Origin: Roseibacillus persicicus
GTDB lineage: Bacteria; Verrucomicrobiota; Verrucomicrobiia; Verrucomicrobiales; Akkermansiaceae
Assembly: GCF_014651675.1 (NCBI RefSeq)
Contig: NZ_BMXI01000004.1
Location: 62,001-126,000 of the forward strand
Direction of reading: 5' to 3'
DNA: 64,000 nt
The position numbers and the translations under genes are program-made. The notes beneath the pieces were generated by a model. That model was not told the DNA's origin. It did no database searches and saw only the letters and a list, made by a program, of their open reading frames with translations. Below, piece by piece: positions 37,151 to 42,477 of this stretch (within the stretch, counting starts at the first letter, position 1; every line of letters starts with the position of its first letter).

Positions 37151-37235
37151 TTTGTAGGATAGGGCAGAAGCCTCCCTTGCAACCTACGTCAGGCAGGTGT
37201 ATGAGTCCGCCCTTCAAGCTCAGCGCAACAATCTC

Positions 37236-40200
37236 ATGCTCAAGTGGACTCTCCAAAAAATCGTCGGGACTAAAAATCAACGTGAAGTCAAACGGCTTCG
37301 CCCTATCGCAGCCCGTATCAATGAGATCGAAGAGGCTCTCCAGCAGGAACCGGAGTCCATTTTGATCGAAAAAACCCGTTCTTGGCAGGAAAAGCTTCAT
37401 CGTTTTCTCCCTCTCCACACCCCTACCAAGCGCACGATTGAGCAGCTTGCCGCTGAAGATTTGGCCGAGCTGACCGCATTTGTTTCTGGGCGCATCGAGT
37501 CCCTTCGCCCGGAGTTCCCCAATTTACCAAAAGTCAGCGCCTCCCCGGCTTCAATTGAGGAGGCCAAGGAGGCCTTTCGGGCGATTGAGGACCAATTCCC
37601 CAAGTTGCGAGAGAAGTATCTCGAAGAGATTCTCCCCGAAGCCTACGCCGTAGTTAAAAATGGTGCGCGCCGGATGTGTGGATCGACGATCAACGTGGCC
37701 GACCAGGAGATGCTCTGGGAGATGGTCCACTTCGACGTTCAACTCATTGGAGGTGTCGGACTGCACCGCGGAATCATCGCCGAGATGCAGACTGGTGAAG
37801 GTAAGACCCTGGTAGCGACCCTGCCCGTCTATCTCAACGCTCTGACCGGAATGGGCGTGCACGTCATTACCGTGAATGATTACCTCGCCAAGCGGGACTC
37901 GGAGTGGATGGGATCCCTCTATCGTTATCTGGGTCTGTCCGTCGGCTGTATCCAGAACCAGCAGTCCCCGCAGGAACGCCGCGAGCACTACGCATGTGAT
38001 ATCACCTACGGAACCAATGCCGAATTTGGCTTCGACTACCTGCGTGACAATGGCATGGCGACTTCGACCAACCAGCAGGTCCAGCGTGGCCATTATTTTG
38101 CCATTATCGATGAGGTCGACTCCATTCTGATCGATGAGGCGCGAACTCCTCTCATCATCTCCGGACCTTCCACCGTTGCGACTTCTACCGAGAAGTATGT
38201 TCAATACAAAGGGATGATTGAGCAGCTGGTGAAGAAGCAGAACACCCTCTGCGCCGAGCTGGCGGCCACCGCCCAAAAGCAGCTCGACGACAATGAGCCT
38301 GACGAAGCCGGGCGCACCCTTTTCAAACTGAAGTTGGCCCAGCCTCGCAACCGCCAGTTTATGCGCTTCATGGAAGACCCTGATATTCGGCGAATTGTCG
38401 AGAAGGCCGAGTTGGCGATGTATCAGGACACCCAGAAGAAGGACCTCTTCGCAGCCAAGGAGGAACTTTACTACACCATCGACGAAAAAGGTCACGATAC
38501 CGATCTAATGGAAATGGGGCGTGAGTTTCTCTCCCCCGGTGACCCCGAATCCTTTGTTCTCCCTGATATCGCGACCGCTTACGCCGAGATCGATGCCATG
38601 CTTGACCTAAGCGACGAGCAAAGGGCCGAAATGAAAGAGAAGGTCACCGTCAAGCTCGATGAGCAGGGCGAAAAGATGCACGTCATCACCCAGCTTCTGA
38701 AGGCCTACTGCATCTATGAAAAGGATGTCGAGTATGTGGTTCAGAACAACAAGGTCGTCATCGTGGATGAGAACACCGGACGGGAAATGCCCGGCCGCCG
38801 TTGGTCTGACGGACTGCACCAGGCTGTTGAAGCCAAAGAGAATTGCGAAATCGAGGCCGAGACCCAGACATACGCGACAATCACCATTCAAAACTACTTC
38901 CGCCTCTACACCAAGCTGGCCGGCATGACTGGAACAGCTGAGACCGAGGCTGCGGAATTCAAGGATATCTACAACCTCGATGTTCTTCCAATTCCGACCA
39001 ATCGTCCTAACCAGCGCGAGGACTTAAATGATCAGGTCTTCAAAACCCGTCGCGAAAAATACAACGCGGTTATCACCAAAATTCAGGAAGCGCACGACAA
39101 GGGGCAACCTGTCCTTTGCGGAACGGCTTCGGTGGAATCCTCCGAGACCCTTTCCCGCATGCTGAAGCGGGCCAAGATTCCCCACAAAGTGTTGAATGCA
39201 AAGTTCCACCGTCAAGAAGCTGAAATCGTACAAGCCGCCGGTCAGCGAGGTGCGGTCACCGTCGCTACCAACATGGCAGGTCGGGGAACGGACATCAAAC
39301 TGGGCGAAGGAATTGCCGAGGTGGGAGGACTCTTCGTCATTGGCACCGAACGTCACGAATCACGTCGAATCGATCGTCAGTTGCGCGGTCGTTGTTCCCG
39401 TCAAGGCGACCCCGGGATGTCGCAGTTCTACATCTCTTTCGAGGACGACCTCATGCGCAATTTTGCCGCCGCCGACCGCATGACGAGCATGATGGAACGC
39501 TTCGGGATGGAGGAAGGCGAGGCCCTGGAGCACAAGTGGCTCAATCGCTCGGTAGAGACCGCGCAGAAGCGTGTGGAGCAGCACCGCTATCGCCAACGGA
39601 AATACGTTCTCGATTTCGATGACGTGATGAACAATCAGCGTGAAGTCGTTTACGGATATCGCAACGAAGTACTTTCCACCGAAGATCCCCGTGAACTTCT
39701 TTACGAAGTGATCGAGAAGGTCATTCCCGACAAAGTCGATTTTTATATGAATCAGCGTGACGAGGGAGCTTCCGATATCCTTGAGCTGATCGGCTGGGCC
39801 AACACAACCTTTCCTCTCCGTCTCCAAAAAGAAGAGGTTAAGTTTGAGGACAAGAGCGCGGATGATATCTCCCAATTCCTCTTGGAGAAAGTCAAGCAAG
39901 CCTACGAGCTGAAGGTCGAACATGAGCATCCCATCATGCTGGACGACTTGGAACGGCAGATCATTTTGGTCGCCATCGACCGTCAGTGGCAACAGCACCT
40001 TTACAACATGGACTCCCTGCGCGACGGCATCAGCCTGCGTGCTCAGGGACAGAAAGACCCGCTGGTCGAGTATAAGAACGAGGCCTACAAGCTCTTCGAA
40101 GAATTGATGAGCAATATCGAAGAAGAGGCCCTTGGCAATCTGTTCCGCTCCTACACGAATCTGGAAGCTTACGAGAAGTTCTTACATGAACTTCCGATGC

Positions 40201-40409
40201 AGATGGGTGGAACTCCTCCGACCCAAGGTCAGGTTGCTCAGAGCAATATGTCGGTCACTACGAACATCCCCGAGGACATCAAACCCGACAAGCCCGAGCT
40301 GAAGCTGAACCTACCCAAGCGCCGTCCTACCGTCAAAGTGGGACGGAACGACAATTGCCCCTGCGGCTCAGGCAAGAAGTTCAAATCCTGCTGCGGCCAA
40401 GAGGAATAA
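37236..40409 (+). CDS. secA: Preprotein translocase ATPase SecA
   Basis: 1057 residues from ATG 37236. NBD1 has Walker A Q-T-G-E-G-K-T and I-D-E-V-D-S-I-L-I-D-E-A-R-T-P-L. NBD2 has A-T-N-M-A-G-R-G-T-D-I. The C-terminus carries the zinc-binding motif C-P-C-G-S-G-K-K-F-K-S-C-C, which contacts SecB or ribosomes. SecA drives protein export through SecYEG. It is longer than E. coli SecA (901), with extra residues in the cross-linking and helical regions. A GTG at 37197 would add 13 residues; the conserved M-L-K-W-T-L-Q-K start favours 37236. The tandem repeat array begins just after the stop codon. Confidence 0.97.
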   Translation: MLKWTLQKIVGTKNQREVKRLRPIAARINEIEEALQQEPESILIEKTRSWQEKLHRFLPLHTPTKRTIEQLAAEDLAELTAFVSGRIESLRPEFPNLPKVSASPASIEEAKEAFRAIEDQFPKLREKYLEEILPEAYAVVKNGARRMCGSTINVADQEMLWEMVHFDVQLIGGVGLHRGIIAEMQTGEGKTLVATLPVYLNALTGMGVHVITVNDYLAKRDSEWMGSLYRYLGLSVGCIQNQQSPQERREHYACDITYGTNAEFGFDYLRDNGMATSTNQQVQRGHYFAIIDEVDSILIDEARTPLIISGPSTVATSTEKYVQYKGMIEQLVKKQNTLCAELAATAQKQLDDNEPDEAGRTLFKLKLAQPRNRQFMRFMEDPDIRRIVEKAELAMYQDTQKKDLFAAKEELYYTIDEKGHDTDLMEMGREFLSPGDPESFVLPDIATAYAEIDAMLDLSDEQRAEMKEKVTVKLDEQGEKMHVITQLLKAYCIYEKDVEYVVQNNKVVIVDENTGREMPGRRWSDGLHQAVEAKENCEIEAETQTYATITIQNYFRLYTKLAGMTGTAETEAAEFKDIYNLDVLPIPTNRPNQREDLNDQVFKTRREKYNAVITKIQEAHDKGQPVLCGTASVESSETLSRMLKRAKIPHKVLNAKFHRQEAEIVQAAGQRGAVTVATNMAGRGTDIKLGEGIAEVGGLFVIGTERHESRRIDRQLRGRCSRQGDPGMSQFYISFEDDLMRNFAAADRMTSMMERFGMEEGEALEHKWLNRSVETAQKRVEQHRYRQRKYVLDFDDVMNNQREVVYGYRNEVLSTEDPRELLYEVIEKVIPDKVDFYMNQRDEGASDILELIGWANTTFPLRLQKEEVKFEDKSADDISQFLLEKVKQAYELKVEHEHPIMLDDLERQIILVAIDRQWQQHLYNMDSLRDGISLRAQGQKDPLVEYKNEAYKLFEELMSNIEEEALGNLFRSYTNLEAYEKFLHELPMQMGGTPPTQGQVAQSNMSVTTNIPEDIKPDKPELKLNLPKRRPTVKVGRNDNCPCGSGKKFKSCCGQEE

Positions 40410-40413
40410 TTTC

Positions 40414-41248
40414 CCGGAGCATGGACATTCTTGTCCATGAACAGAGCTTCCGGTTGCCAGAGTTCTCGTGGGGACGGATTCGGTATGGACGGTTCGTCCC
40501 AAGGACAGAAATGTCCTTGCTCCGTTGGTAGGGCTGTTTTGATGAAACAGCCGCGAATGTTTCGGGAAGGTCTCCAGGCCTTCGGCCATCGTCCGCGAAA
40601 GAGCCTTTCGAAAAACGCTGAACTCTCGTGGTCCCTCTATCAAAGGGATCCTACCGGAGCATGGACATTCCTGTCCATGAACAGAGCCTCAGGTTGGCAG
40701 AGCTTTCGTGAGAACGACTTCGGTTCAGATGAACCGTCCCAAGGACAGAAATGTCCTTGCTCCGTTGGTAGGGCTGTTTTGATAAAACAGCCGCGAATGT
40801 TTCGGGAAGGTCTCCAAGCCTTCGGCCATCGTCCGCGAAAGAGCCTTTCGAAAAACGCTGAACTCTCGTGGTCCCTCTATCAAAGGGCCCCTACCGGAGC
40901 ATGGACATTCTTGTCCATGAACAGAGCTTCCGGTTGCCAGAGTTCTCGTGGGGACGGATTCGGTATGGACGGTTCGTCCCAAGGACAGAAATGTCCTTGC
41001 TCCGTTGGTAGGGCTGTTTTGATCAAACAGCCGCGAATGTTTGGGGAAGGTCTCCAGGCCTTCGGCCATCGTCCGCGAGGGAGCCTTTCGAAGAACGGTG
41101 AACTCTCTCGGTCCCTTCATCAAAGGGCCCCTACCGGAGCATGGATATTCCTGTCCATGAACAGAGCCTCCGGTTGTCAGAGCTTTCGTGAGGACGGATT
41201 CGGTTCAGACGAACCGTCCCAAGGACAGGAATACCCCTGCTCTATTTT
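40414..41248. repeat. Tandem array of 240-bp units with opposed REP-like palindromes
   Basis: Units start at 40414, 40654, 40894 and 41134; the last is cut after about 115 bases. Each unit holds CATGGACA/TGTCCATG (stem 8; 40420-40439 in unit 1) preceded by CGGAGC; AAGGACA/TGTCCTT (40501-40518), which on - is also preceded by CGGAGC; a small hairpin just before it; and GGCTGTTT/AAACAGCC (40532-40552). The first two are one element in opposite directions. Units 1 and 3 share variants in the left part that units 2 and 4 lack (A-B-A-B). Since 240 is a multiple of three, long open frames appear on both strands; I do not take them as genes. The array fills the gap between the converging secA and sixA genes. 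Confidence 0.93.
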
Positions 41249-41731
41249 CTAAATTAGGACTTTTGGAGGCACGAGCATCTTCAATACAACTCCGTGGCGG
41301 GTCGGGGGCGCCATACTGAAATGCACGAGCGCGGCTTTCTTGACCTCGCAATAACCAGTCTCCGCACCTAAAAGCCACGATACCATTCCCGAGAATGTAG
41401 GTTCGTGTCCGACGAGAACGACACGCGTGATCTCATCAGGCAAGGCGCCCAGTTCTGCCATCACATTTGCTGGCCGGAGATCGAAGTCCAACCAATCTTG
41501 GACCACTGGCTCCCCTTCCGCGCCAGAGGCAGTCACCACCCCCTCGGCTGTTTCAAGCGCACGGACGCGAGGGCTCGTGAAGACGAGATCAGGAATCAGG
41601 TCCATTTTCTTGAGCAACTTGCCAACTGCACGAGATTGCTTCCACCCCTTGTCTGTTAGACTTCGGTCGTGATCTTTTTCTCCGGGGGTTACCTCGTGAG
41701 CCTTTCCGTGTCTAACCAGAATGACTTCCAT
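41249..41731 (-). CDS. sixA: Phosphohistidine phosphatase SixA
   Basis: 160 residues with the histidine phosphatase R-H-G motif (V-R-H-G-K, H8), the S-P-R-V-R-A-L-E-T-A helix, and the second His in V-G-H-E-P-T. Short family members of this size are SixA-like and remove phosphate from phosphohistidine in kinase or phosphotransfer proteins. Its ATG overlaps the fabG stop codon (T-G-A-T-G), so translation is probably coupled. Its stop lies at the edge of the repeat array. Confidence 0.88.
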   Translation of the reverse strand: MEVILVRHGKAHEVTPGEKDHDRSLTDKGWKQSRAVGKLLKKMDLIPDLVFTSPRVRALETAEGVVTASGAEGEPVVQDWLDFDLRPANVMAELGALPDEITRVVLVGHEPTFSGMVSWLLGAETGYCEVKKAALVHFSMAPPTRHGVVLKMLVPPKVLI

Positions 41732-42477
41732 CACATCGTCATTCCACCATCGGTAGCAATCACCTGACCGGTGATGTATCGGGCCTCGGGGCTTGCCAGG
41801 AAAAGAGCCAAAGCAGTAACGTCACCGACATTTCCAAGTTCCTTGAGCGGAATCTTACCCAGAATTGCATCGATGATCTTCTCGTCGAGAGCATCGGTCA
41901 TATCAGTGGCGATGAAGCCGGGAGCAATCGCATTGCAGGTCACCTTTTTGCCTGCCAGTTCGCGGGCAACGGACTTGGTGAAGCCGATGAGACCAGCCTT
42001 GCTTGCGGCATAGTTCGCTTGTCCGGCATTTCCTATCAATCCAATCACGGAGCTTACGTTGATGATACGGCCATTTCCGGACTTCATCAATGGGCGCTGA
42101 AAGGCTTTGGTCATACTGAAGGCTCCCTTCAGGTTTGTATCGAGAACCACGTCCCAGTCCTCCTCCTTCATCCGCATGAGGAGACCATCTCTCGTGACCC
42201 CTGCATTGTTGATCAAGATGTCGACTTTTCCGAAGTCAGCGATAACGGTTTTTGCCATTTCTTCAACCGCAGCGCCGTCGGAAACGTCGACCGCATAGGC
42301 GCGGGAAACGCCGGGATACTCCGCATTGATCGCGTTGACGGCGGCCCCGCAGCTGCTTTCGTTTCTGGAAATGACTGCGACTTTAGCCCCCTCGGCTGCG
42401 AATGATTTTGCCATCTCCAAGCCGATTCCCCGTCCCGCACCGCTGACTACTACCACTTGATCTTGAAATTTTGCCAT
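41731..42477 (-). CDS. fabG: 3-oxoacyl-[acyl-carrier-protein] reductase
   Basis: 248 residues from ATG 42477. A short-chain dehydrogenase with G-A-G-R-G-I-G for NADPH binding, N-N-A-G, the catalytic Ser (N-V-S-S) and Y-A-A-S-K. The stretch T-R-D-G-L-L-M-R-M and the end G-Q-V-I-A-T-D-G-G-M are typical of FabG, which carries out the first reduction in fatty acid elongation. The open frame reaches 42810, but it crosses the divergent TPM-domain gene start. There are no other fab genes nearby; sixA follows with overlapping codons. Confidence 0.93.
   Translation of the reverse strand: MAKFQDQVVVVSGAGRGIGLEMAKSFAAEGAKVAVISRNESSCGAAVNAINAEYPGVSRAYAVDVSDGAAVEEMAKTVIADFGKVDILINNAGVTRDGLLMRMKEEDWDVVLDTNLKGAFSMTKAFQRPLMKSGNGRIINVSSVIGLIGNAGQANYAASKAGLIGFTKSVARELAGKKVTCNAIAPGFIATDMTDALDEKIIDAILGKIPLKELGNVGDVTALALFLASPEARYITGQVIATDGGMTM

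Follow-up and report, generated by a model that had tools for sequence, protein, structure and literature searches.

The 240-bp tandem array of the window (the whole 64-kb stretch of DNA analyzed here) is a strict alternation of two different REPIN-type elements, A and B. In all likelihood it is a hybrid BIME, that is, a tandem compound unit of two non-autonomous REPIN families, A with a GGAG head and B with a GTAG head. The copies multiplied in place after the compound had arrived, and their A and B parts were later shuffled between copies.

Structure and history of the array

TRF delimits the array at 40414-41232, with a period of 240, 3.4 copies, 89% matches, 0% indels and a score of 1323, in agreement with the three and a half units of 240 bases counted in the initial annotation; a 45-bp row is its only other row in the window. 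The gap between the secA and sixA stop codons is almost wholly occupied by the array, which leaves four bases on the secA side and six bases between the last decayed A arm and the convergent sixA-like frame. The left neighbor is a 1070-aa ORF which, from its CPCGSG...CC tail, we take to be secA. The features, in window coordinates, are as follows.

37197..40409, + strand: secA, ORF of 1070 aa with the C-terminal CPCGSG...CC motif, left neighbor
40415..40524, no strand: A-REPIN 1, opposed palindromes 40416-40436 (+) and 40503-40523 (-), motif scan
40525..40655, + strand: B element 1, 131 bp, GTAG-headed REPIN, covariance model R1, 130.1 bits
40655..40764, no strand: A-REPIN 2, palindromes 40656-40676 (+) and 40743-40763 (-), motif scan
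40765..40895, + strand: B element 2, covariance model R1, 129.1 bits
40895..41004, no strand: A-REPIN 3, palindromes 40896-40916 (+) and 40983-41003 (-), motif scan
41005..41135, + strand: B element 3, covariance model R1, 129.1 bits
41135..41242, no strand: A-REPIN 4, left palindrome 41136-41156 (1 mismatch), right arm decayed, to 41242; inverted arms 41137-41159 and 41220-41242
41249..41734, - strand: sixA-like gene, ORF of 161 aa, convergent right neighbor

Each unit carries an opposed pair of CGGAGCA-headed GGACA/TGTCC palindromes and then, in its second half, a GGCTGTTT/AAACAGCC hairpin, as had been described from the start. What the earlier description missed is that this second half is an opposed pair of GTAG-headed palindromes. 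It had also placed a hairpin of varying sequence just before the second element; the sequence does differ between units, but the folding signal is modest (an equally good fold is reached by 53 of 200 shuffles for unit 1, 12 for unit 2 and 8 for unit 4). For unit 1 as a whole, on either strand, 0 of 200 shuffles fold as well, and the same holds, in single-stranded DNA, for each of its two A palindromes and for its left B hairpin. Rfam gave no match over the array at E up to 1, and a known Rfam family was rejected; CRISPR and integron attC readings were set aside on the general features of these systems.

In their A parts, units 1 and 3 agree at all 117 positions, units 2 and 4 at 89.7% over 107 bp, and the other unit pairs at 84-86%. 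The B parts are closest between units 1 and 2 (96.7%), with 91.1% between units 2 and 3 and 90.2% between units 1 and 3. The alternation of unit types proposed earlier (1 and 3 versus 2 and 4) thus applies to the A parts only, and the single 480-bp doubling that it had suggested is not supported, since it would have kept A and B together. Judged from the sequences, this patchwork is compatible with exchange between copies.

Element A is a dispersed REPIN with a GGAG head

Element A is the opposed pair of CGGAGCA plus GGACA/TGTCC palindromes. The genome search for this motif that had been proposed at the outset gave 76 exact matches to GGAGCA-N0-2-GGACA-N2-8-TGTCC against 0 for the reversed control pattern, so that the unit is not unique to the site; many further copies exist genome-wide. 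A behaves as a REPIN in that its opposed REPs surround a spacer, are dispersed, and flank a RAYT-type gene, the Y1 gene at C2:128911-129543 (C1, C2 and so on are contigs of this genome, G000; other G numbers are relatives). It lacks the GTAG head of the GTAG superfamily: its head is GGAGCA, and the base before GGAG is C or T in the copies looked at. The REP- or BIME-like identity first suggested is borne out by the further copies, the opposed pairs, a mostly extragenic location and Y1/RAYT-type genes flanked by the same repeat class.

Element B is a 131-bp REPIN with a GTAG head

With the array as query, BLAST found 72 matches in the genome, many of the shorter ones consisting only of the 131 bp between A pairs. 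A profile search of the stretches around these matches yielded 56 near-full copies of B at 23 places, and model R1, run on the whole genome, recovered all 56 of them and added C1:610593 as well as a weak place, C14:99818. At its start, B has CGGTAGGG, a hairpin and CCGCGA; its end repeats this plan as the reverse complement. GTAG lies at the hairpin foot at both ends and, because the ends mirror each other, B is itself an opposed pair. The paired GGTAGGG and CCTACC columns are conserved in most of the 56 copies.

B is a GTAG-type REPIN that folds as opposed hairpins with compensatory changes. In a structure of 30 pairs, pairs are intact in 95.2% of the cells of the 56 aligned copies, and both partners have changed in 8 pairs, compared with 3.5 in shuffles (none of 500 attains this number), the structures having been drawn by hand on the same sequences, which favors them over slid versions. 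A 38-pair structure is 90.6% intact, with 11 both-side changes against 7.4 in shuffles. Less clear are these both-side changes (13 of 500 shuffles) and the further pair types, which 89 of 500 shuffles equal for the 30-pair structure and 74 of 500 for the 38-pair structure. RNAalifold, run on the B copies, gave a poor consensus.

On the aligned strand, G-U changes exceed A-C changes, at 71 versus 20 cells in the 30-pair structure (15 versus 4 pairs by hand count) and 111 versus 58 cells in the 38-pair one; although cells depend on one another, the excess is a hint that the fold of one strand of B is maintained. The B strand agrees with the GC-skew strand at 15 of 23 places (p 0.21), so that a GC-skew bias was rejected and a strand-bound mechanism is unsupported. 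One fixed direction relative to neighboring genes was also rejected, as B points both ways in tandem gene pairs. A viral origin of the B head was rejected on 0 exact matches of one pattern in viral contigs.

Arrays across the genome

The 23 places of B comprise 15 tandem arrays of two to five near-full copies, read from a 92-contig draft in which copy number may be wrong, and eight single copies. The fixed tandem form is therefore not confined to the secA-sixA site, and hybrid or tandem BIMEs are also in print. The partner of B is A in nine of the 15 arrays and a dispersed element, C, in the other six (one unit of C gives 56 genome matches). Measured from model R1 starts, the spacings are 240, 253, 240, 268-271, 269, 269, 254-269, 256 and 241 bp in the B+A arrays, and 346, 302, 333, 390-391, 389 and 387-388 bp in the B+C arrays. 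Spacing is thus near-constant within an array and differs among arrays (periods of 240 to 391 bp). The array between secA and sixA is a tandem alternating mosaic of opposed REPs, as in BIMEs.

Within arrays, B copies are 89.3% identical (59 pairs) versus 78.8% between arrays (1481 pairs); the corresponding values are 93.4% (18 pairs) versus 70.8% (192 pairs) for the A parts, and 91.2% (8 pairs) versus 61.3% (58 pairs) for the C parts. Copies are so much closer to their array-mates than to other arrays that the arrays must have grown in place. Each array also has its own period and spacer sequence, which places this multiplication after the arrival of the compound. Among the 21 A segments between B copies in the nine A+B arrays, the left joint is CCTACCGGAGC in 14, the remaining ones being one to three changes away, and the right joint is GCTCC followed by RNYG in all 21. 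With near-identical joints in nine arrays, the compound is most likely older than the local growth. A lone B lies between A elements at two places, C1:262960 and C3:176679.

At C1:610.6-611.4 kb (L168:2139-2925), a B-like array has a period of 259, 3.0 copies and GTGGACGTCTCGTCCAC repeats inside the unit; the same GTGGACGTCTCGTCCAC palindrome is found on both sides of the transposase embedded in MetH (see below). We consider, tentatively and with some doubt, that B could be a general seed of local tandem amplification, multiplying itself, wherever it inserts, together with its neighbor, be it A, C or the GGACGTCTCGTCC repeat of C1:610 kb. If so, one genome displays the series from a single unit to a five-copy array, with several partners.

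TRF (period of at least 100, score of at least 100) found five rows in 1.264 Mb, made up of the window and 60 stretches of 20 kb picked around B places, some overlapping and with the arrays themselves left out, hence not a random sample. One row is the window array and two are C3 arrays of GTAG REPINs. The other two fall within an open frame at C1:338-348 kb (L178:10318-19999) of at least 3227 codons, which reaches the end of the stretch and contains 348-bp (116-codon) tandem repeats in 6.1 and 5.0 copies; from its sequence, it probably encodes a giant repeat protein.

Transposase genes and their repeats

PF01797 (Y1_Tnp) has 14 matches in the genome. The Y1 gene on C2 is bordered by A-REPINs in tandem, two to one side of it and three to the other, whose interior is organized like that of the A of the window. 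Its product scores 52.6 bits against NF047646 (cut-off 80), passes Pfam Y1_Tnp (26.4, cut-off 23) and has MPNHVHLL; as it fails the former model and passes the latter, we term the gene RAYT-like only. The check for RAYT genes recommended in the initial annotation thus led to a Y1 gene amid A-REPINs, albeit one below the curated RAYT cut-off.

The gene at C3:150054-150494, absent from the 14 PF01797 matches, just passes NF047646 (81 bits, cut-off 80) and is under the Pfam Y1_Tnp cut-off (16.9 bits, cut-off 23). Tandem arrays of a further REPIN with a GTAG head, period 181, stand on both sides of it (region C3:149706-151155). The relative G015 has a gene passing NF047646 (85.3 bits) with small arrays of GTAG repeats on either side. 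Inverted pairs starting with GGAGCG, with differing palindromes, accompany Y1 genes at C10:100 kb (L032), C20:80 kb (L034) and C11:209 kb (L035); the C20 gene, the only one of the three scored, reaches 102.9 bits against NF047646. These sequences suggest that GGAG may be a head used by this group, and the GGAGCG starts might form a head class close to the GT[AG]GGAGC found in Pseudomonas REPs, as given in the compared part of PMC3686654.

A transposase with B on both sides was not found among ten of the 14 Y1 loci and the genome places of model R1. The sole B match in these ten loci is a chance match with one mismatch, in L032, and no R1 place lies beside the other four Y1 genes or C3:150 kb, in a search that may miss 2.5% of the genome. 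The B nearest to a transposase is about 1.2 kb from the A-flanked C2 gene. On the same contig, at C2:122.9 kb (L062:3926-4372), an IS200-type transposase of 148 aa sits inside 43-nt GGTAG-headed inverted repeats; these were rejected as a family, with 2 genome matches at up to 3 mismatches (control 0).

RAYT-type domains embedded in enzymes

Pfam places RAYT-type domains in frame within three proteins of this genome: LeuRS, MetH and an HsdR-like protein (C9:34000-41000, L165; C12:144600-148200, L166; C10:207600-211300, L167). The LeuRS gene with the insertion is the only strong match to the LeuRS editing domain, covering 144 of 185 positions and broken at the insertion; the other match is short and lies in a 900-codon frame. 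In G003, of the same genus, the LeuRS-transposase-LeuRS order recurs, with 60% identity across the full 340 residues of the search. Among 20 genomes, our own included, the insertion is present in our own and in G003 and missing from 17, where the two LeuRS flanks are close together; G006 gave no clear match. By our own reading of the translations, MetH of G002 carries a RAYT domain at the matching place.

Further hosts in relatives are deaminase-like (G001 and G039), glycosyltransferase-like (G042 and G038), IspG-like (G010) and restriction-methylation-like (G036) proteins; for these loci (L242-L244, L246-L249, L252), host names and matching sites come from reading the sequences. Several of the insertions thus seem to occupy corresponding sites in two genomes. 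The embedded domains look like long-kept, gene-embedded transposases. No paper on RAYT domains inside enzymes was found in the literature searched, and they are possibly more interesting than the array.

Distribution among relatives

By model R1, under stricter filters, 6 of 57 relatives have B-like elements; A cores were seen in two of the 57, G008 and G014. G014, which belongs to another genus, has GTAG REPIN arrays in three stretches, with periods of 215, 249 and 237, and by eye the DNA between the REPINs looks unrelated between arrays. BLAST against 58 genomes scored at most eight candidates per genome and is weak evidence for absence of B. Homologues of B, mostly of 76-98 bp, occupy 7 stretches of the genome collection, which come from an Opitutales, an Opitutaceae and a Kiritimatiellia MAG, and the Kiritimatiellia MAG contig JAMLJG010000031.1 (L116) has head-to-tail GTAG REPs at a spacing of about 72 bp.

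The sixA-like protein has relatives in 26 of the 35 genomes searched, our own included. The SecA tail motif, sought in two spellings, was not found in the flanks of about 1.5 kb at the sixA loci of 17 relatives (L086-L102), and none of the 17 showed an empty secA-sixA site. With the SecA tail absent near sixA, the site does not look conserved.

How the arrays may have arisen

We infer a mechanism based on RAYT-type enzymes. Insertion of one REPIN at the other would have brought A beside B. RAYT-type HUH nucleases, by nicking folded single-stranded REP heads, could then have spread the compound, and the same nicking might start local tandem growth, either by rolling-circle copying, a model proposed in the compared part of PMC2817692, or by hairpin slippage. 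Amplification of the arrays would thus be RAYT-driven.

Alternatively, the arrays may have grown by unequal crossing-over or slippage alone, the transposase having no part in amplification, a scenario to which we give somewhat less than an even chance. The sequences themselves reveal only in-place growth and patchy sharing between copies. However, both transposase genes seen with their own REPINs sit between tandem arrays of them and, in the compared part of PMC2817692, a third of RAYT genes lie beside BIMEs and captured rayt 3' ends are described. In the literature compared, the origin of tandem BIMEs is a model and not an observation. In the present genome, a single REPIN occurs with several partners, at 15 places in tandem and at eight as one copy; this, the two transposase genes between arrays of their own REPINs and the differing periods make rolling-circle copying and slippage separable by experiment.

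Gene setting and a possible role

A different view is that the arrays are kept as bidirectional terminators or 3'-end stabilizers between convergent genes, their mobile origin being secondary. B lies between convergent genes at 13 of its 23 places (tandem 9, divergent 1), whereas 16 of the other 109 neighboring pairs in the same stretches are convergent (Fisher 6e-5), or 10 of 65 when the comparison is limited to pairs separated by over 60 bp (Fisher 2.7e-4), with gene calls around the arrays made by our own codon-usage script and some neighbors low-scoring. The nearly filled secA-sixA gap also fits a role of this kind, as does the excess of G-U over A-C changes, which a folded form of one strand would give, with the caveat of the dependence among cells. 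Terminator-like sites are few and weak, however: 3 versus 1.1 +/- 0.9 expected, all of them one weak site repeated per unit. Moreover, the secA-sixA neighborhood is not seen at the 17 relatives' loci, B occurs in both directions in tandem gene pairs, and, according to the compared part of PMC3733652, REPs are mostly downstream of genes in general, so that the bias needs no special role. We therefore regard this view as rather unlikely; most likely, the location between convergent genes is tolerated or mildly useful at the 3' end, and not specific to secA and sixA.

An assembly artefact, with tandem copies created or miscounted by the assembler, could be invoked for a draft of 92 contigs in which units 1 and 3 share an identical A part of 117 bp. 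Yet the array is within a 324-kb contig, its units mutually differ by 5-16%, each of 15 arrays has a period and a partner element of its own, and similar arrays exist in another genome, G014, all of which makes an artefact very improbable. Least credible of all is a repeat protein, for which 240 bp would be 80 codons of the 273-aa frame open across the array (40431-41252, + strand): the coding reading was rejected because the period is not a multiple of three in all arrays (241, 253, 254, 256, 269 and 389 bp elsewhere), and in addition the variation preserves hairpin base pairs and the frame starts inside a REP.

Comparison with known systems

The hybrid BIME that we favor has several known counterparts, compared here with parts of the respective texts. 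Among them are the Stenotrophomonas hybrid BIMEs (Nunvar 2010, PMC2817692), which contain REPs of two RAYTs and for which module-wise tandem growth and a rolling-circle model are presented. As here, modules of opposed REPs are in tandem with locus-specific inter-REP segments, some mix the REPs of two RAYTs, and a rayt gene may lie beside the BIME. Our arrays differ by a nearly identical two-family junction in nine of them, by B as a conserved 131-bp element and by the GGAG head of A. E. coli BIME-2, as described in the same source, shares the several tandem units of opposed REPs and the rayt gene flanked on both sides, but its sequences are different.

In P. fluorescens SBW25 (Bertels and Rainey 2011, PMC3116915), the GI-GIII tandem arrays alternate two REP classes strictly and at fixed spacing, and tandem REPINs with flanking sequence and RAYT-linked clusters also occur. 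The SBW25 arrays are opposite on the two sides of the genome, whereas orientation here fails to track GC skew, and in our case both partners are opposed pairs.

B resembles the GTAG superfamily (Di Nocera 2013, PMC3733652) in its GTAG head, opposed (HH) dimers and tandem clusters with flanks; clusters are said there to contain dimers that are repeated in tandem along with the DNA beside them, and Opitutus terrae, of the Verrucomicrobia, as rich in GTAG REPs. B is longer than the common dimers, and the GGAG head of A has 0 occurrences in the compared text.

A role of the GTAG head in cutting is described in PMC8266576, and GT[AG]G heads are given for most groups in PMC6006769, with atypical ones, such as CnGA, in others. 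The RAYT substrates compared in these texts are GT[AG]G-headed, whereas A is GGAG-headed with C or T before. Pseudomonas REPs that start with GT[AG]GGAGC (Nunvar 2013, PMC3686654) share with A the GGAGC just before the stem, so that A has a precedent for its GGAGC and departs only in lacking the GT in front, C or T standing in its place. An A-type head, GGAG without preceding GT, is here beside GTAG-headed elements in one array.

This A/B compound array was not found in the literature searched, most subscription journals being outside its coverage. Hybrid BIMEs and tandem REPINs with flanking DNA have nevertheless already been described, and the present array is a further example, in the Verrucomicrobiota.
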